Origin: an uncultured Eubacteriales bacterium
Lineage (GTDB): Bacteria > Bacillota > Clostridia > Christensenellales > Aristaeellaceae
Length of the DNA: 53,685 nt
Direction of reading: 5' to 3'
Assembly: GCA_902773895.1 (NCBI GenBank)
Contig: CACYGB010000021.1
Location: 1-53,685, forward strand
Shown here: one piece after another, positions 2,182 through 18,535 of the stretch
How positions within the stretch are numbered: the first letter of the stretch is position 1
Layout: each line of letters begins with the position of its first letter
The notes under the pieces: model-generated
Databases searched by the model: none
What the model saw: the letters and a program-made list of their open reading frames with translations, nothing else
What the model was told of the DNA's origin: nothing
Made by a program: the position numbers and the translations under genes

Positions 2182-2210
2182 TTGCATTATAGCACAAATT
2201 GTCGTATAAT
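2182..2210 (+). promoter_or_regulatory. Promoter of the reductase/AMP-ligase-ACP-AOS operon
   Basis: TTGCAT (2182-2187), 17-bp spacer, TATAAT (2205-2210). On the opposite strand a TATAAT-like box (2186-2191) lies inside this spacer and could serve rlmI, so the two divergent promoters would overlap. Transcription from here starts near 2217 and excludes the in-frame ATG at 2215 as the reductase start. Confidence 0.8.
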
Positions 2211-2244
2211 AGAAATGATTTTTGCTTGCAAGGAGGCGGGCGCC

Positions 2245-3102
2245 GTGGACAAACAGGTGGTGTGGATCACCGGCTCTTCCAGCGGGCTGGGGCTGCACAC
2301 GGCCCGGGCGCTGGGAATGCACGGGTTCGACGTGATCGCCGGGGCCCGTTCCTTCGGCCAGGGCAAGGCGGTGGAGCACTGCCGCAGCCTGGGGCTGGAC
2401 GTGACGGACGACCGGAGCGTCGACGCGTTCGTTCAGCGGGCCCTGCAGCTTTCCGGTCCGCCGGACATCCTGGTGAACTGCGCCGGGATGCTGGTGCTGG
2501 GCAGCTGTGAAGAGTACAAAATCGACGAAATCCAACAGGTTCTGAACACCAATTTCCTGGGCCAGGTGCGCATGATCCAGCGGGTGCTGCCGCTGATGCG
2601 GGATAAGGGCAAAGGAAAAATCGTGAATTTTTCCTCCATCAACGGCCTGCTGGGCATCCCCTTCGAGGGCGCCTACACCGCCAGCAAGCACGCCATCGAG
2701 GGCTTTTCCGAATGCCTGGCCCTGGAGGTGAAGCCCTTTGGCATCCAGGTGATGCTGGTGGAGCCCGGGGATCATCAGTCCGGTTCCGCCGCCTACCGCC
2801 GCCATTCCGCCGGAATGGGGCCGGATTCCCCCTACAAGGCGGCCTTCGACACGGGAACGGGGGTCATCGCCTACGACGAGGGCCACGGCAGCGACCCGGA
2901 CGCGCTGGGCGAAAAAATCGCCCGGGTGCTGCGCCGCCGGCGCATTCCCAAGCGCCTGCGCATCGCCAAATTCGACCAGCGCCTGGCCGTGGTGCTGCAC
3001 GATCTGCTGCCCCCCTGGGGGTTTGAGCGGATCATCGGCTCCTACTACAAAAAAAGCAAAGGACCAAACCCTTTGAAAGAAAGAGGAACGAGGGATGAGT
3101 GA
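2245..3102 (+). CDS. Short-chain dehydrogenase/reductase, candidate 3-ketosphinganine-type reductase
   Basis: A 285-residue classical SDR, probably an NADPH-dependent ketone reductase. It shows the cofactor loop TGSSSGLG (residues 9-16), the NCAG motif, a serine-rich NFSSING strand and the catalytic Tyr144-x-x-x-Lys148 (YTASK). Start is a GTG with AAGGAGG 8 bp upstream; the promoter position rules out the ATG at 2215. The last 8 bp overlap the start of the AMP-ligase/ACP/AOS gene, implying translational coupling. The neighbour makes an alpha-amino ketone, and in eukaryotic and bacterial sphingolipid synthesis the step after the oxoamine synthase is reduction of exactly such a ketone by an SDR. 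Function in that pathway is inference from context; SDRs are too diverse to assign substrate by sequence. Confidence 0.85.
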   Translation: MDKQVVWITGSSSGLGLHTARALGMHGFDVIAGARSFGQGKAVEHCRSLGLDVTDDRSVDAFVQRALQLSGPPDILVNCAGMLVLGSCEEYKIDEIQQVLNTNFLGQVRMIQRVLPLMRDKGKGKIVNFSSINGLLGIPFEGAYTASKHAIEGFSECLALEVKPFGIQVMLVEPGDHQSGSAAYRRHSAGMGPDSPYKAAFDTGTGVIAYDEGHGSDPDALGEKIARVLRRRRIPKRLRIAKFDQRLAVVLHDLLPPWGFERIIGSYYKKSKGPNPLKERGTRDE

Positions 3103-6100
3103 AGTGCTGGCCCGCAGCCAAAAACTGCGGGAAAATATGTCGCTGCAAAATCTCTTTGAGCTGATCAGCGGCGACGAGGACCGGGTAGCCGCCCGGTACC
3201 TGGAAAAGGACGAAGAAAAAGCCATCACCTTCGGGGAATACCGCAAACAGGCCTTCGCCTGCGCCGCCGCGCTGCGCACCGCGCTGGGGGAAGGAAACAA
3301 GGGCAAATTCGTAGGCATCCAGTCCGACACCTGCCCGGAATACTTTTTCCTGTTCTGGGGCGTGATCGCCGCCGGCTACAACGCCGTGCTGATGGATTTC
3401 TCCCTGAACGACGAAATGACCTCCTACATCCTGGGCCAGGCCGGCGCCGTGGCCCTGATCACCAAGGCGAAACGGCCCCTGAACGTGAAGCAATTCACCA
3501 TCCAGGAAATGAAGGAAGCCCGGTTCGTGCCCTCCTTCCGGCCGGATTTCGGCAGCATGGTGGCCCTGTGCACCTCCGGCACCACCGACACCAGCCGGGT
3601 GTTCGTCTACAACGCCCAAGCGGTGTGCAGCCAGGTGCTCAACGCCGAAATGCTGTACCAGGCCAACAAGCGCATCATCTGCGACGAGCCACGGCGCAGC
3701 CTGGCCTTCCTGCCGTATCACCACGTTTTCGGCTTCATGGTGTGCCTGCAGTGGATCCATTTCCTGGGCTATGAAACGGTGTACCTGCACGACCGCAGCC
3801 CCAAGTGCATCCAGGAAACGGCCCAGCGCTTCCAGATCACCCATCTGATGGCGGTGCCGCTGCTGGCCAACAACCTGTGCGTGGCGCTGAACAAAAAGGT
3901 GGCCAAGGAAAGCCGCATGAAGCGGGCGGCGTTCAAAACGCTGCGGGGCCTGTCCCTGGGGCTGCAGTCCGTGGCGCCGGGCTTCGGGCTGGATTTTGCC
4001 CGGAACGTGCTGTTCAAGTCCATCGTCAGCCAGATCCTGGGGCCGGATGTGCGGTGCATCATCCTGGGCGGCAGCCATACCCCCAAGGAGCACATGCGCA
4101 CCCTCAGCGCCCTGGGCTATTTCACGGTGTCCGGCTTTGGCATGACGGAAACCGGCATCACCAGCGTGGAAACCAACATGAACGTGATCACCCGTACCTC
4201 CGGTTCCGTGGGCCGGCCCCTGGCCAGCGCCGAATACCGGGTGCAGAGCGACGGGGAAAAATCCAACCGCGGCGAAATGTACATCCGCGGCAACACCATC
4301 CACACCGGCCGCCTGGTGGACGGCCAGCTGCTGCCCCCGGCCCTGGACGACGAGGGCTGGTACCGCACCGGCGACGTGGTGCGCCTGGAAAAAGGCAGCC
4401 GCATGTACGTGGAAGGCCGCGCCAAGGACGTGATCATCAACGAATCCGGCGAAAACGTGTACCCCGACGAGATCGAGGACGCTTTCGGCGCCCTGGAAGG
4501 CGTGGAGCAGTTCTGCGTGCTGGGCGTAAAGGCCGCCAAAAAAGGGGAAAAGAACGGCCTGCTGTCCCACATTCCCCATCTGCCCGGCAAGAAAAAGGGC
4601 GTGGTGGATTACGAGGACATCACCCTGGTCATCAACGTGGGCCAGCACTTCAAGGACGACGCCTACATCGCCGGCCTGATGACCCAGGTGCGCAAAATCA
4701 ACGCTTCCCTGCCGTCCCTCAAGCGGGTCACCCGGGTGCTGGCCACGCCGGAGAGGTTCCAGACCGCCGGCGGCATCAAGGTCAAGCGCCTGGCGCTGAA
4801 AAAGGAAATCGAAGAAAACAAGCTGGCGTACCGGGATATCGACTTCAACCGCCGGGACGACAGCGCCGCCGAGGAAAAGCCCCTGGTGCAGGAGGAAAAA
4901 ACGCCCTCCGACCTGCAGCTGGAAGAAATCAAGCAGAAGGTGCGCCAGGTGTACGCCGAAACCCTGGACGTGCCTGCGGACCAGATCAAGGACGACGCCC
5001 ACTTTATCGACGACCTGGGCGGCGACAGCCTGCAGGTGCTGGGCATGAGCCTGAAAATCGAGGAACAGTTCAACGTGCTGATCCCCACCGAGGAATACGG
5101 AAAGTGCACCACCGTCAACGACCTGGCGGCGCTGCTGTACGCCCGGGTGCGGGGCAACGTGGCCTACGAAAATTCCCTGCCCCAGGACGACACCCCGGTG
5201 ACCCCCATCACCCGGTTCGAGGATTCGCCGGAATACCAGGCTTTCCAGAAGCGGCTGCATTCCCTGACCGACGCCGGCCAGGAGAACCCCTATTTCGTGG
5301 CCCACGATTCGCCGCTGCTGGACAAGAGCTATGTGGACAACCAGTGGATGCTGGACTTTGGCAGCTACAACTACATCGGCATGTCCGGCCGGGAGGAAAC
5401 CAAGGCCGCGGCCAAGGCGGCCATCGACAAGTACGGCACCTCCGCCTCCGGCAGCCGCCTGCTGGCCGGCGAAAAGACGCTGCATAAGGAACTGGAAGCC
5501 GAAATCGCCGACTGGAAGCACACCGAAACCGCGCTGGTGCTGGTGGGCGGCCATTCCACCAACGTCACCTGCGTGGGCAACTTCTGCGGCAAGGGCGACC
5601 TGATCGTCTACGACGCCATCGCCCACAACTCCATCGAGCAGGGCTGCCGCCTGTCCCAGGCGGTGGCAAAGCCCTTCCCCCACAACGACGTGCAGGCGCT
5701 GGACAGCATCCTGCGCACCCAGCGGCACAAGTTTGCCAAGGTGCTCATCGTCATCGAGGGCGCCTACTCCATGGACGGCGACATCGCGCCGGTGCCGGAA
5801 TTTGTGAAGCTGAAAAAGAAATACGGCTGCTTCCTGATGGTGGACGAGGCCCATTCCGCCTGCGTCATCGGCCAGAACGGCGGCGGCGTGGACGAATATT
5901 TCGGCCTGGCCCCCGACGACATCGACATCAAATACGGCACCCTGTCCAAGGGCCTGGGCACCTGCGGCGGCTACCTGGCCGGCAGCCACGCCATCATCGA
6001 CTACATGCGCTACAACCTGCCCGGCTTCGTGTTCTCCGTGGGCATTTCGCCGCCGCTGGCCGCCGCCAGCCTGGAGGCCATCCGCCTGCTGCGCCGGGAC

Positions 6101-6421
6101 CCCAGCATCATGGAGCGGATGCGCCGCAACATCCGCTGCTTCATGGAGGAGGCGCACAAGCGCAACCTGAACACCTGCCTGGCCGGGGAAACGGCCATCC
6201 TGCCCATCCTGGTGGGCAAGGACGAGGACGCCTGGGAACTGAGCAACCGCCTGCGGAAAAAGGGCGTGATCGTTCCCCCCGCCGTGTATCCCGCCGTGCC
6301 CAAGAACAAGGCCCGGCTCCGCTTCTGCGTGATCAGCGAGCATAAGCCGGAGGAAATCGTGGAAGCGCTGGATAAGCTGGTGGAATGCGCCAAAGAAGCG
6401 GGCATCCAGCTGCCGTCGTAA
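3095..6421 (+). CDS. Trifunctional fusion: acyl-AMP ligase, acyl carrier protein, alpha-oxoamine synthase
   Basis: A 1108-residue protein with three parts. Residues about 1-580 are an adenylate-forming ligase: CTSGTTDTSRV (about 159-169), GFGMTETG (about 347), YRTGD (about 423), GRAKDVI (about 441), and the C-terminal lysine region GGIKVKR (about 559). Residues about 605-690 are an acyl carrier domain with the phosphopantetheine serine at 645 in DDLGGDSL. Residues about 720-1108 are a PLP-dependent alpha-oxoamine synthase (serine palmitoyltransferase/KBL/BioF family): NYIGMS, AHNSIEQG, DEAHS with Asp917 and His920, and the Schiff-base lysine 952 in TLSKGLG. Predicted work: activate a fatty acid, load it on the fused ACP, condense it with an amino acid with loss of CO2 to an amino ketone. 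Whether the amino acid is serine is not decidable here. Cytosolic, cotranscribed with the upstream reductase. Confidence 0.88.
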   Translation: MSEVLARSQKLRENMSLQNLFELISGDEDRVAARYLEKDEEKAITFGEYRKQAFACAAALRTALGEGNKGKFVGIQSDTCPEYFFLFWGVIAAGYNAVLMDFSLNDEMTSYILGQAGAVALITKAKRPLNVKQFTIQEMKEARFVPSFRPDFGSMVALCTSGTTDTSRVFVYNAQAVCSQVLNAEMLYQANKRIICDEPRRSLAFLPYHHVFGFMVCLQWIHFLGYETVYLHDRSPKCIQETAQRFQITHLMAVPLLANNLCVALNKKVAKESRMKRAAFKTLRGLSLGLQSVAPGFGLDFARNVLFKSIVSQILGPDVRCIILGGSHTPKEHMRTLSALGYFTVSGFGMTETGITSVETNMNVITRTSGSVGRPLASAEYRVQSDGEKSNRGEMYIRGNTIHTGRLVDGQLLPPALDDEGWYRTGDVVRLEKGSRMYVEGRAKDVIINESGENVYPDEIEDAFGALEGVEQFCVLGVKAAKKGEKNGLLSHIPHLPGKKKGVVDYEDITLVINVGQHFKDDAYIAGLMTQVRKINASLPSLKRVTRVLATPERFQTAGGIKVKRLALKKEIEENKLAYRDIDFNRRDDSAAEEKPLVQEEKTPSDLQLEEIKQKVRQVYAETLDVPADQIKDDAHFIDDLGGDSLQVLGMSLKIEEQFNVLIPTEEYGKCTTVNDLAALLYARVRGNVAYENSLPQDDTPVTPITRFEDSPEYQAFQKRLHSLTDAGQENPYFVAHDSPLLDKSYVDNQWMLDFGSYNYIGMSGREETKAAAKAAIDKYGTSASGSRLLAGEKTLHKELEAEIADWKHTETALVLVGGHSTNVTCVGNFCGKGDLIVYDAIAHNSIEQGCRLSQAVAKPFPHNDVQALDSILRTQRHKFAKVLIVIEGAYSMDGDIAPVPEFVKLKKKYGCFLMVDEAHSACVIGQNGGGVDEYFGLAPDDIDIKYGTLSKGLGTCGGYLAGSHAIIDYMRYNLPGFVFSVGISPPLAAASLEAIRLLRRDPSIMERMRRNIRCFMEEAHKRNLNTCLAGETAILPILVGKDEDAWELSNRLRKKGVIVPPAVYPAVPKNKARLRFCVISEHKPEEIVEALDKLVECAKEAGIQLPS

Positions 6422-6437
6422 AAACAACGCAAAATAA

Positions 6438-6479
6438 AAAACTGCCGTGCCTGATTGCGCACGGCAGTTTTCTTTTTGT
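6438..6479. terminator. Bidirectional terminator between convergent genes
   Basis: A 13-bp stem (6438-6450 with 6459-6471), flanked by an A-rich side on the left and TCTTTTTG on the right, so it can stop transcripts from both sides. Confidence 0.85.
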
Positions 6480-7325
6480 TCAGGAAAACAGCAGCCGGGC
6501 CGCGTTTTCCCCCAGAATCCCAGCCTTTTCCCCATCGGTCAGGGGCAGCGCCCGGAACTGCTCCAGATAAGCTGCCTGATCGCTCCAGGGGCTGTCGGTG
6601 CCGAAGAGCACCCGGTCCGCGCCGAACAGGCGCACCAGCCCCACAAAGGAGGCGGGGCTGAGCATGCGCAGCTCCTTCTGCGTGCGCAGCTTCCCGTCGC
6701 CGTTGGGCGTCATCACGCCCAGGGAAAAGGACGTGTCCAGCAGTACCGGCGTATCGGGCAGCAGGCGTTCCACCTGCTCCCAGCAGCGCCAGCCGCCCAT
6801 GTGGGCCAGCACCAGGGTGGCCTGCGGCACGGCGTCCACCGCCCGGCGGATCTTTTCCGGGGCGGCCTGCTCCGCGCCGGGCAGCCCCACATCCAGGCCG
6901 GCGTGGGTCACCACCATCATATCCAGCGCCGCTGCTGTCTTCAGAATCCGCAAATAGCGGGGATCGTCCATGGCCACGCCCTGGTAGGGCGGATGCACCT
7001 TGACACCCTTGATCCCCGCGGCCCGCAGCCGTTCCATTTCCCGCTCCGGGTCCGGATAATCCGGGTGCATGCCGCCCAGGGAAAGCAGGCACCGCTTCTC
7101 ACCGTTCAGGCGGATGGCGGCGTCGTTGATGTGGGGCACCTGCCGCGGGCTGGTGGCCACCGGCAGCACCAGGGACCAGGCGATCCCGGCGCGCAGCATG
7201 GAAGCGCGCAGGCCTTCCGCCGTCCCGTCGGAAAAGGGCCGGGTGTGGGACGCCGCCTGCAGCTTGTCCACCGCCGTCCGGGCGATGGCGTCCGGAAAGG
7301 TGTGGGTATGAAAATCAATGATCAT
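6480..7325 (-). CDS. Amidohydrolase family protein (metal-dependent hydrolase)
   Basis: A 281-residue TIM-barrel hydrolase of the amidohydrolase-2/ACMSD-like type. The N terminus MIIDFHTHTFPD carries the first metal-ligand pair HxH; VHPPYQG, VTHAGLD and LAHMGGW supply the later histidines; LFGTDSPWSD supplies the C-terminal barrel aspartate. The family hydrolyses or decarboxylates cyclic and aromatic carboxylic substrates; the substrate here is unknown. The start lies 9 bp after the stop of the leucine-rich-repeat gene, whose TGA overlaps the Shine-Dalgarno (TGAGGACG), so the two are translated from one mRNA. No signal peptide, so it is cytosolic even though its partner is exported. Confidence 0.85.
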   Translation of the reverse strand: MIIDFHTHTFPDAIARTAVDKLQAASHTRPFSDGTAEGLRASMLRAGIAWSLVLPVATSPRQVPHINDAAIRLNGEKRCLLSLGGMHPDYPDPEREMERLRAAGIKGVKVHPPYQGVAMDDPRYLRILKTAAALDMMVVTHAGLDVGLPGAEQAAPEKIRRAVDAVPQATLVLAHMGGWRCWEQVERLLPDTPVLLDTSFSLGVMTPNGDGKLRTQKELRMLSPASFVGLVRLFGADRVLFGTDSPWSDQAAYLEQFRALPLTDGEKAGILGENAARLLFS

Positions 7326-15940: not shown

Positions 15941-18211
15941 TTACAGCAGATTCCGCTGGATCTTGCCGCTGATGGTTTTGGGCAGCTCTTCCCGGAACAC
16001 CACGATGCGGGGATACTTGTAGGGCGCGGTGCGCTGCTTGACGTAGTTCTGGATTTCCTTTTTCAGTTCTTCGGTGCCTTCCTTGCCCTTCACCAGCACG
16101 ATGCTGGCCTTCACCACCTGGCCGCGCACGGGGTCGGGAGCGGCGGAAACGCCGCACTCCAGCACATAAGGCAGCTCCATGATAACAGATTCGATTTCAA
16201 ACGGCCCAATGCGGTAGCCGGAGGACTTGATCAGGTCGTCCACCCGGCCCACGTACCAGTAGTAGCCGTCCTCGTCCTTCCAGGCGGTGTCGCCGGTGTG
16301 GTACAGGCCGTCGGGATGGCTGTTGTCCTGGCCCAGATACCCCAGATACAGGCCGCAGGCGGGCTTGCCGTCGCCCAGGCGGATCACGATTTCGCCGGTT
16401 TCACCGGTAGGCACGGGCTTGCCGTCCTTGTCCACCAGGTCCACGTCAAACAGCGGCGAAGGCTTGCCCATGGAGCCGGGCTTGGGCGCCATGCCCACCA
16501 AATTGCCGATGGACAGGGTGGTTTCCGTCTGGCCGAAGCCCTCCATCAGCGAAAGGCCCGTGGCCTTCTGGAACTGATAGAACACTTCGGGATTCAGCGC
16601 TTCGCCGGCGATGGTGGCATGCCGGATGGAGCTCAGGTCGTACTTGCTCAGATCCTCCTTGATCAGCATGCGGTACATGGTGGGCGGCGCGCAGAAGGTG
16701 GTGATGTCGTACTTTTTGAACAGGGGCAGGATCTGGTCGGCGTGGAACCGCTCAAAGTCATAGACGAACACCGGCGCTTCGCACAGCCACTGGCCGTACA
16801 GTTTGCCCCACAGGGCCTTGCCCCAGCCGGTGTCGGAAATGGTCAGGTGCAATTTGCCCGGCACCACGCAGTGCCAGTAGCGGGCCGTGATGTAATGGCC
16901 CAGGGGATAGGTGTGGCTGTGGGCCACCAGTTTGGGGTAGCCGGTGGTGCCGGAGGTAAAGAACATCACCATGGGATAGCTTCCGCTGGGCGTTTCCTCC
17001 GTACGGGCAAAGCGGGAGGAGAACGCCTCGAAATCGGCGTCAAAGTCGTGCCAGCCTTCCCGGCTGGCGCCGCACAGGATCAGCGTTTTCACGGAGGGGC
17101 ACTTGGGCAGCGCCTCCTCCACGTGCTCCGCCGCCTTGCCGTAGCCGGTGCACAGCACGGCGCTGACCTCCGCCTTGTTGAAGCGGTATTCATAATCGTG
17201 GGCCAGCAATTGATCGGTAGCCGGGATGGCGATGGCGCCGATCTTGCACAGGGCCAGCATGCTGAGCCAGAAGTGGTACTGCCGGCGCAGCACCACCAGC
17301 ACCTTGTCGCCCTTTTTGATGCCCAGGGAGCGGAAATAATTGGCGGTGCGGTTGGACTGCTTTTTCATATCCCGGAAGGTGAAGCGCCGCTCGTACTGAT
17401 CCTTGTCCAAATGCAGCATGGCCAGGGCGTCGGGCTTACGTTCCGCCAGTTCGTCCACCACGTCGAAGGCGAAATTGAACTTTTCCAGGTTGGAGAAGGA
17501 TACGTCCTTCAGCGCGCCGCGCTCATCCTCCACTGTATGCACGAACCGGTCGGCTACCAGGGCTTCCTCCACCGGCATGCTGGCCTTGATGGTCTGCATC
17601 ACCTGGCGCTCTTCCGTTTCTTCGCCGGGCAGCACCACCGCCAGGAACACGCAGTCGCGCCCTTCCGCGGCGATCATGCCGTGGGGCGTGGCGGAATCGT
17701 AGTAAATGGAATCGCCTTCCCGCAGCAATTCGATATGCTCGCCCACCTGCACCTTCATGGCGCCCTGCAGGATGTAATCGAACTCCTGGCCGGAGTGGGT
17801 GGTGGTATGGATGGGCTTGTCCTGCAGATCGGGCTCGTAGGAATAGCGCACGAAATACGGCTCCGAAATCTTCTTGCGGAACATGGGCGCCAGGTTGCGG
17901 ATGTCGATGCCGTGCTCCCGGGCGGTCACTTCGCCGGCGCCCTTGCGGGTAATGGTGTAGGACGACAGCTGCGCGCTGCGGCCTTCCATCAGGTCGATCA
18001 TTTCCACCTTGAAGGTCAGGGCGCACTTGTGCAGGAAGGTAAAGGGCAGATCCAGCCTGCCTTCCTCATAGGCGCGGTACGTATCCACGTCCACGTCGGT
18101 CATCCGGGCCATTTCCTCCAGCGAATACCCGCTGATTTCCCGCAGATCCCGGATACGGGCCGCCACCTCGCGCACCTGCTCGGGGATATGCTGTGCCTGC
18201 TTCACATCCAT
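15941..18211 (-). CDS. XRE-cupin-acyl-CoA synthetase fusion (AMP-forming)
   Basis: A 756-residue protein. Residues about 10-70 are an XRE-type helix-turn-helix (LREISGYSLEEMARMTDVDVDTYRAYEEGR), about 110-190 a cupin (HSGQEFDYILQGAMKV, GDSIYYDSATPHGMIA), and about 240-756 an AMP-forming acyl-CoA synthetase close to the medium-chain/ACSM type: FFTSGTTGYPK (417-427), GFGQTETTLS, YHTGD, GRVDDLIKSSGYRIGPFEIE and the C-terminal lysine in PKTISGKIQRN. It should activate a short, branched or aromatic carboxylic acid to its CoA ester; the HTH-cupin half may sense the same ligand. AGGAGGAAT precedes the ATG. The gene is controlled by a T-box leader, so its expression follows uncharged tRNA. The acid is not known. 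Confidence 0.9.
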   Translation of the reverse strand: MDVKQAQHIPEQVREVAARIRDLREISGYSLEEMARMTDVDVDTYRAYEEGRLDLPFTFLHKCALTFKVEMIDLMEGRSAQLSSYTITRKGAGEVTAREHGIDIRNLAPMFRKKISEPYFVRYSYEPDLQDKPIHTTTHSGQEFDYILQGAMKVQVGEHIELLREGDSIYYDSATPHGMIAAEGRDCVFLAVVLPGEETEERQVMQTIKASMPVEEALVADRFVHTVEDERGALKDVSFSNLEKFNFAFDVVDELAERKPDALAMLHLDKDQYERRFTFRDMKKQSNRTANYFRSLGIKKGDKVLVVLRRQYHFWLSMLALCKIGAIAIPATDQLLAHDYEYRFNKAEVSAVLCTGYGKAAEHVEEALPKCPSVKTLILCGASREGWHDFDADFEAFSSRFARTEETPSGSYPMVMFFTSGTTGYPKLVAHSHTYPLGHYITARYWHCVVPGKLHLTISDTGWGKALWGKLYGQWLCEAPVFVYDFERFHADQILPLFKKYDITTFCAPPTMYRMLIKEDLSKYDLSSIRHATIAGEALNPEVFYQFQKATGLSLMEGFGQTETTLSIGNLVGMAPKPGSMGKPSPLFDVDLVDKDGKPVPTGETGEIVIRLGDGKPACGLYLGYLGQDNSHPDGLYHTGDTAWKDEDGYYWYVGRVDDLIKSSGYRIGPFEIESVIMELPYVLECGVSAAPDPVRGQVVKASIVLVKGKEGTEELKKEIQNYVKQRTAPYKYPRIVVFREELPKTISGKIQRNLL

Positions 18212-18236
18212 GGTGATTCCTCCTGTCCGGGGCGAT

Positions 18237-18535
18237 AAAAAAGCCCGCCCCAAAGTCGATGTCGCTTTGAGACGAGCTGATGTTTTCTCAACCCGCGGTA
18301 CCACTCAAATTGCGCTTTTCAGCGTCGCTCTGCCGGCTCGTGTTCCAAGCCTGCGGCCTTGACGCGGCCGATACGGAAGACGATTACTTCCCGCTTTCCA
18401 AACGGGGTTCACCGCTTCGGCTCAGAAGGGATGGGCTTGTGGAAAGAGAATCTGCTGCCGGTTTTCAGCTGCCCCGGCTCTCTGGAAGCAGCGCGCTTTC
18501 CGCCGTCTTCGTCATCGCCTTTGCTTATGAAATTA
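18237..18535 (-). ncRNA. T-box riboswitch leader of the acyl-CoA synthetase gene
   Basis: Read on the minus strand. The T-box core is GAGTGGTACCGCGGGTT (complement of 18290-18306). Upstream are Stem I landmarks: GATGACGAAGACG pairing with CGTCTTC, then AGAGAGCCGGGGCAGCTGAAAACCGG, which has the AG-bulge and GNUG distal-loop features, and CTGAGC. Downstream is the terminator: a 14-bp stem (18265-18278 with 18242-18255), loop of 9, then six T (18237-18242). tRNA aminoacylation would decide between antitermination and termination. I could not read the specifier codon with confidence; one fold leaves GAA-GUA-A beside the basal helix, which would be valine, but the Stem I fold is not certain. Confidence 0.93.

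Follow-up and report, generated by a model that had tools for sequence, protein, structure and literature searches.

A fused ligase, acyl carrier and alpha-oxoamine synthase as a predicted one-protein starter of long-chain base synthesis in Clostridia

Described starter systems and the fused locus

In Rhodobacteria, including Caulobacter, a dedicated acyl-acyl carrier protein (ACP) synthetase, AasR, loads a dedicated ACP, AcpR, which feeds serine palmitoyltransferase (SPT) (PMC9386255). In Pseudomonas fluorescens MYb115 the alpha-oxoamine synthase (AOS) PfSgaB is encoded beside an iterative polyketide synthase (PKS); it condenses L-serine with an acyl-CoA and hardly accepts alanine or glycine, and PfSgaC, the short-chain dehydrogenase/reductase (SDR) of the cluster, was proposed as the ketone (3-ketodihydrosphingosine, KDS) reductase (PMC12134224). 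Here we analyzed a window of 53,685 nucleotides, contig 21 (CACYGB010000021.1) of the draft genome of an uncultured Eubacteriales bacterium of the Aristaeellaceae (GCA_902773895.1; 2.43 Mb, 137 contigs, 84% complete). Close relatives of this bacterium are rumen inhabitants. The window encodes an SDR and, directly downstream, a protein in which an acyl-AMP ligase, an acyl carrier and an AOS are fused. We consider it likely that this fused protein is a self-contained, serine-using 3-keto-long-chain-base synthase whose product is reduced by the SDR; domains, catalytic residues, conservation, phylogeny and co-occurrence argue for this reading.

The ligase domain would use ATP to activate a free fatty acid and load it onto the phosphopantetheine of its own carrier (at Ser645), the AOS domain would condense this thioester with an amino acid, L-serine being the likeliest, under loss of CO2 to give a 3-ketosphinganine-like base, and the SDR would convert the ketone to a sphinganine-like 2-amino-1,3-diol. 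A single chain would thus cover the functions of AasR, AcpR and SPT, which are three proteins in Proteobacteria. We infer the acyl chain, the use of serine, the direction in which the SDR works and whatever N-acylation or head group may follow. That the fused protein makes an acyl amino-ketone of some kind from a fatty acid and an amino acid is predicted with high confidence; use of the product by the host as a membrane sphingolipid is, in our estimate, evenly poised.

The fused gene (3095-6421, + strand, ATG start) encodes 1108 amino acids. The Pfam families AMP-binding (residues 28-403, E 3e-40; 3176-4303), PP-binding (residues 614-681, E 8e-14; 4934-5137) and Aminotran_1_2 (residues 752-1095, E 9e-48) all match above their gathering cut-offs, and the AOS domain as a whole covers residues 745-1105 (5327-6409). 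A sequence-only reading of the window had named these three domains in one protein, which the domain search confirms. It had also named the carrier serine (Ser645, codon 5027-5029) and the AOS residues Lys952, Asp917 and His920; an alignment places them at exactly these numbers. The full catalytic set expected at SPT positions (Lys952, Asp917, His844, His920, Arg1076) is present. Ser645, Asp917, His920 and Arg1076 are kept in all 43 full-length rows, the window included, and Lys952 in 41 of them. The two exceptions (L084:7971-11165 and L085:7971-11165, from genomes G357 and G298) carry GSLCGAFG in place of GTLSKGLG; the lysine that binds pyridoxal 5'-phosphate (PLP) is gone, ligase and carrier are retained, and the AOS appears decayed or repurposed. 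In 15 of 17 rows conservation is higher in the AOS than in either of the other two parts (80% identity against 60% for the ligase in L022, for example). For the phosphopantetheinyl transferase family ACPS, the genome itself contains a single match. A structure prediction of the full protein from a shallow alignment of 17 rows (mean pLDDT 63, pTM 0.43) was not used.

In the ligase part we assign motifs that we take to be A3, A5, A7, A8 and an A10-like one (Lys562). A5, A7 and A8 are conserved, A3 is atypical (TSGTTDTSR), and Lys562, which lies outside the Pfam match, is invariant in 17 rows. These are motifs expected of an AasR-like acyl-ACP synthetase, and the ligase is predicted to load its own carrier rather than CoA. 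The AasR-AcpR-SPT route further resembles the fusion in starting from free fatty acid and in dividing among its proteins the functions of the three domains; it differs in using three genes and in a reduction assigned to a predicted dehydrogenase/epimerase, possibly after N-acylation (PMC9386255). E. coli BL21 is reported to have sphingolipid genes too (PMC9386255). The likeness to the SgaAB(C) system is that PfSgaB is encoded in a PKS-AOS cluster and that AOS of such clusters form the sister group of the fused one, as judged through a stand-in (see below). In that system, however, the acyl chain comes from a separate iterative PKS, the AOS is unfused to ligase or carrier, and the SDR of the stand-in belongs to another SDR subfamily. 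No iterative type I PKS lies beside the fused gene; the open reading frames (ORFs) adjoining the gene pair are, read by eye, methyltransferase-like and amidohydrolase-like.

The domain order itself is already known. Proteins with AMP-binding, carrier and AOS domains (A-CP-PLP2) were tabulated in 2013 for Microscilla marina (A1ZVW4) and Blastopirellula marina (A3ZWL3), the table giving no product or function (PMC3870968). The likeness to our fusion is that of the Pfam order in this listing and not of a sequence comparison. What appears to be new, as read from sequence, is a single polypeptide that would start long-chain base synthesis by means of a PKS-type AOS, here in a member of the Bacillota. 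Microscilla and Blastopirellula presumably belong to phyla other than that of the fusion host.

The AOS domain among known synthases

The scores of the fused AOS against NCBIfam models (score/cut-off in bits) were 335/426 for bioF, 303/535 for gly_Cac_T_rel, 290/640 for the SPT model SPT-CFB (NF047600) and 288/460 for KBL. The nearest solved structures are the Sphingobacterium SPT 3a2b (216 bits) and ThAOS (215 bits). Among plasmid records, the best matches of the AOS are mostly PKS- or capsule-associated where the annotation shows the setting; they include a Planktothrix PKS (48%), Paraburkholderia, Pseudomonas and Sinorhizobium records and a Streptomyces carrier-AOS protein.

Two trees were compared, a quick one of 86 rows and a careful one of 64. 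The records L026, L029 and L092 and four duplicate entries had been excluded before both; the careful tree omits a further 22 of the 86 rows (two long-branch, two degenerate fused and 18 thinned by hand) and keeps E. coli BioF. LCB2a, E. coli BioF, L084/L085 and one row from Streptomyces form long branches in the quick tree, and both trees were built without HemA, CqsA, cysteate AOS and proteobacterial SPT. In the careful tree the fused, standalone and carrier-AOS forms make up one group (support 100/99), whose sister is the AOS of PKS and capsule clusters (the pair again 100/99). A 98/94 split parts BioF, KBL, ThAOS and the like from SPT together with the fused/PKS pair, and the fused AOS lies outside both the SPT clade (100/100) and the KBL clade (100/100). 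The quick tree agrees with this unrooted order; support for its BioF/KBL/ThAOS side is 93. Both trees are unrooted, and the order in which SPT and the PKS pair split off depends on where the root lies. The sequence-only reading had named firm clustering of the AOS with BioF or KBL, in a biotin or threonine context, as one outcome that would speak against a sphingoid product; both trees separate the fused AOS from BioF and KBL.

Membership in classical SPT was rejected, since the SPT score lies far below its cut-off and the fused AOS outside the SPT clade, though the function is likely the same. The catalytic residues are shared and 3a2b is the top solved structure, just over ThAOS; on the other hand, the SPT-like genes of the family and order are only 33-38% identical to the fused AOS, form a separate clade and are unfused.

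The positions that contact PLP-serine were taken from an SPT crystal structure (PMC10196870). Tyr758 of the fused AOS corresponds to Asn in that SPT (Asn52), in BioF and in KBL, and to Tyr in plant LCB2a and in the PKS group. Ser785 is Gly in BioF. Ser787, Thr949 and Ser951 are common to the fused AOS and SPT, and the last of them is Gly in E. coli BioF and KBL. Since a clostridial BioF row also has all three, only Tyr758 and Ser785 separate the fused AOS from BioF.

A role as a BioW-BioF-like biotin enzyme, or as a KBL of the threonine pathway fused to other domains, was weighed against this background. The highest NCBIfam score is that for bioF, under its cut-off, and BioWF fusions, in which an acid-activating enzyme is joined to an AOS, do exist; BioW, however, makes a CoA thioester for the biotin pathway, and the account of BioWF describes no carrier domain (PMC9544090). 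For genome comparisons we used a family set of 120 genomes from 50 genera. BioB had no match at E up to 1e-60 in these 120 genomes, the same search matching 7 of 14 controls, and BioA had no match in the genome of the window at its 84% completeness; a biotin context is thus lacking here, which favours the sequence-only reading. With bioF below its cut-off, the 98/94 split placing BioF on the far side, and BioB and BioA not found, the BioF/BioWF role was rejected. The KBL role was rejected on its score and on the KBL clade that excludes the fused AOS, no search for threonine dehydrogenase having been made. We regard this explanation as exceedingly improbable.

PfSgaB enters the trees through a PKS-group row from Pseudomonas (L108). 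In that record the SDR lies six locus-tag steps from the PKS, the spacing of PfSgaA and PfSgaC (PMC12134224), and because the locus-tag spacing of PKS, AOS and SDR is equal, L108 was taken as its stand-in. Sinorhizobium meliloti offers a further comparison (L105): a sister-group AOS adjoins an SDR, the differences being a large multidomain protein and capsule genes alongside, an unfused AOS and an SDR of another subfamily. We take this region to be RkpG/RkpH.

The amino acid used also bears on the product. Were the AOS to take alanine or glycine, 1-deoxysphinganine-like or simple amino-ketone lipids would result, which the SDR would turn into membrane or signalling amino alcohols. AOS enzymes can be promiscuous, a BioWF fusion accepting alanine, serine and glycine (PMC9544090), and the substrate-pocket letters of the fused AOS fall short of proving serine. 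PfSgaB, an AOS from a PKS-AOS cluster like those of the sister group, nearly excludes alanine and glycine (PMC12134224), and the pattern in which SPT-like genes replace the fusion (see below) likewise speaks against their use, so we hold this alternative to be unlikely. In a sulfonolipid (capnine) route cysteate would be the partner that the AOS joins to the acyl chain, and the SDR would be a 3-ketocapnine reductase, an enzyme that we assume to resemble KDSR. Solved structures related to the AOS include the cysteate acyltransferase 28eh (162 bits), and a 3-ketocapnine reductase has been described (PMC11211663). The score of 28eh, however, is well under that of 3a2b (cysteate AOS being absent from the tree and no search for cysteate genes having been made), and this route seems very improbable to us.

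The reductase and the kinds of AOS in the family

The SDR gene (2245-3102, + strand, GTG start, 285 amino acids) encodes a predicted 3-keto-long-chain-base reductase. It matches Pfam adh_short (E 9e-44) and has the cofactor motif GxxxGxG (TGSSSGLG) and the catalytic motif YxxxK (YTASK). The best of 18,950 models was NF049977 (KdsR, 3-ketodihydrosphingosine reductase; 223 bits), followed by PRK06179 (195 bits). NF049977 is also the best model for the SDR beside the fusion in L022, for one on the fusion contig L078 and for those beside the SPT-like genes of L101 and L102, from the same family. Our best guess, backed by context, is that the SDR is a 3-ketodihydrosphingosine reductase.

AOS genes of the 120 family genomes were sorted by kind, each assignment being checked by coverage, tree or best match. 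Forty genomes carry the fused AOS, 18 a standalone one and 16 a classical SPT-like one, and two kinds never occur in one genome; two contig-cut fusions (G070 and G073) stand outside these counts. A KdsR-like SDR, counted at E up to 1e-48, is present in 39 of 40 genomes with the fusion, 15 of 18 with the standalone form and 14 of 16 with the SPT-like gene (68 of 74 in total) compared with 11 of the 46 others (Fisher 1e-14, uncorrected for kinship). G070 is among the 11 with an SDR and G073 among the 35 without. Counted by genus, the SDR occurs in 26 of 29 genera with an AOS and in 6 of 21 without (p 1.3e-5). The mutual exclusion of the three kinds argues for one shared product, and the SDR accompanies the synthase even where the two are unlinked, which argues for one pathway.

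In the 40 fusion genomes the SDR lies directly upstream in 24, on the same contig 8 kb off in one and elsewhere in 14; in one it was not found. Of 41 fetched loci in which a fusion is preceded by at least 900 bp of sequence, 27 have the SDR directly upstream. The reductase had been described as coupled to the fusion; with adjacency in 24 of 40 genomes, the two are better called co-inherited than strictly coupled. The broader proposal, an operon making a sphingoid-like amino alcohol, gains support from the AOS tree, from KdsR as top model and from the missing biotin context, the activity being a prediction from sequence.

Compared over the AOS part, the standalone AOS proteins (L086, L087, L098, L141-L148) share 68-74% identity with the fused one. 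Across 19 standalone loci the search returned no carrier domain and a single, weak ligase match (L147, 27% over 165 residues). The quick tree needs two changes, which suggests that the standalone form may have arisen by two separate losses. In several loci of the order an SPT-like gene is followed directly by an SDR (L101, L102, L134, L135, L139 and L140), KdsR-like in the two cases tested (L101 and L102). These pairs, from the taxonomic order to which the host belongs, appear to be a second, classical-looking route in Clostridia.

Several observations weigh against a serine-using synthase with a dedicated reductase. The fused AOS reaches no NCBIfam cut-off, bioF being its top model and SPT scoring 290 of 640; at the position of Tyr758 the bacterial SPT has Asn; and PfSgaB is represented in the tree by L108, chosen for its gene layout. 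A Nostoc AOS with SPT-like residues made no ketosphinganine, its authors placing the protein in a cyanobacterial group taken for BioF (PMC8895605), so residues alone cannot settle the function. The PLP lysine is lost in two distant fused relatives (L084 and L085), and in 18 family genomes the AOS gene lacks ligase and carrier domains. For NF049977 the SDR reaches 223 of the 400 bits that the cut-off requires, and at the threshold used this model is not specific, as it also matches Bacillus subtilis, Lactococcus lactis and Haloferax volcanii and does not match the Bacteroides control. In the S. meliloti and Pseudomonas clusters the SDRs have a best model other than KdsR, and SDRs adjacent to the fusion and to SPT-like genes are only about 30% identical. 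The statistics of AOS exclusivity and SDR co-occurrence ignore kinship.

Distribution and gene neighbourhood

A scan of species genomes returned 29 loci. Eighteen span the protein from ligase to AOS (one, at a contig end, without the first 25 residues), 4 are cut by contig ends and 7 match the ligase or carrier part alone. The records that carry a name belong to the Clostridia; many come from the rumen or gut and some from other sources, one being labelled Christensenella and one Christensenellaceae. Within the genus, the fusion is present in 27 of 28 other genomes, as contig-cut pieces only in G009, G014 and G017, and was not found in G003. A sample of 396 genomes of the order contains full-length fusions in three families (f1, f21, f31) and cut pieces in a further one (f6). 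The recurrence in the genus and in three families of the order rules out an assembly accident. Among the matches listed for 398 genomes sampled from the phylum there is no additional full-length fusion; two genomes of one family encode a carrier-AOS didomain (55-56% identity), and one encodes a ligase-carrier didomain. No plasmid record covers 80% of the fused protein. Comparison with four close relatives gives a ratio of nonsynonymous to synonymous substitution rates (dN/dS) of 0.11-0.19 for the fused gene, and comparison with one relative gives 0.17 for the SDR gene; the fused gene is under purifying selection.

This distribution also bears on whether the product is a diffusible specialised metabolite, that is, an amino-ketone or amino alcohol serving as antibiotic or signal and not as membrane-lipid precursor. 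The nearest relatives of the AOS lie in PKS and capsule clusters, and in two loci of another genus (L066 and L071) an AraC-like regulator, identified by eye, precedes the fusion. Against this stand the near-universal presence of the fusion in the genus and the absence of any transporter, regulator or tailoring gene seen recurring in the genus loci, as far as crude gene calling shows. We consider such a metabolite improbable.

Known or likely sphingolipid makers that have been named are Bacteroidetes, Chlorobi and Proteobacteria, with Actinobacteria among the Gram-positives, and bacterial sphingolipids change both the lipid metabolism and the defences of hosts (PMC12134224). Searches of the open-licence literature returned no account of sphingolipid genes for this group of Clostridia, nor any on Christensenellales sphingolipids, which does not show that none has been printed. 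If long-chain bases are made as predicted here, widespread rumen and gut Clostridia would join the sphingolipid makers, and the fused form would escape surveys based solely on classical SPT (none of the 120 family genomes passes the SPT model cut-off). The compact gene pair would be a portable means of turning free fatty acid into long-chain bases, and a domain layout listed in 2013 without function would become directly testable. In its widest form our proposal is that rumen and gut Clostridia near the Christensenellaceae are unrecognised sphingolipid makers, that in much of one bacterial family a protein of about 1100 residues converts free fatty acid and serine to 3-ketosphinganine, channelling the acyl chain on its carrier with no released intermediate, and that across the family fused AOS, standalone AOS and classical SPT are interchangeable starters of a conserved lipid; this may equally well prove right or wrong.

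The SDR gene and the fused gene overlap by 8 bp (3095-3102), a detail of the sequence-only reading that is correct to the base. Upstream lie the ribosome binding site of the SDR gene (AAGGAGG, 2230-2236, + strand) and a promoter-like site (TTTGCA-18-TATAAT, 2181-2210, + strand, 10 of 12 sigma70-like matches). The claim of one promoter stands in so far as this is the single sigma70-like match; with 0.8 matches on average in shuffles, it is merely suggestive. A terminator-like hairpin of 13 pairs follows the fused gene (6438-6471, + strand); 7 such hairpins were counted against 6.2 in shuffles, which is no excess.

An antisense ORF of 1167 amino acids (3032-6535, - strand) overlaps the fused gene and outlasts it; it is probably a by-product of the high GC content at third positions. 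That the fused gene itself is a chance antisense frame or an assembly artefact was rejected, as codon-position GC (0.62, 0.39, 0.88), dN/dS and the relatives back the + strand. Divergent to the SDR gene lies a gene that is methyltransferase-like by eye (924-2174, - strand); its relatives turn up at 7 of the 63 loci for which genes were called, each of the 7 bearing the fusion. A larger gene cluster was considered and rejected: the recurring neighbours seen within the genus are the SDR and this divergent gene. Calling of neighbouring genes was crude, antisense frames having replaced some genes.

In two genomes (L094:7264-9512 in G849 and L095:7269-9500 in G545) the carrier-AOS didomain stands right after a gene for a CDP-alcohol phosphatidyltransferase (PF01066), which is possibly a head-group enzyme. 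Proteins matching the ligase-carrier part alone (about residues 1-688) were seen in L088, L089, L093, L096, L032 and L033, with Pfam domains checked for L088 and L032. Elsewhere in the window, an ORF of 787 amino acids (15941-18304, - strand) appears by eye to join a regulator domain and a cupin-like part to an AMP-ligase; judged by its first residues, an ORF near one of the SPT-SDR pairs (L102:5362-7683) resembles it.

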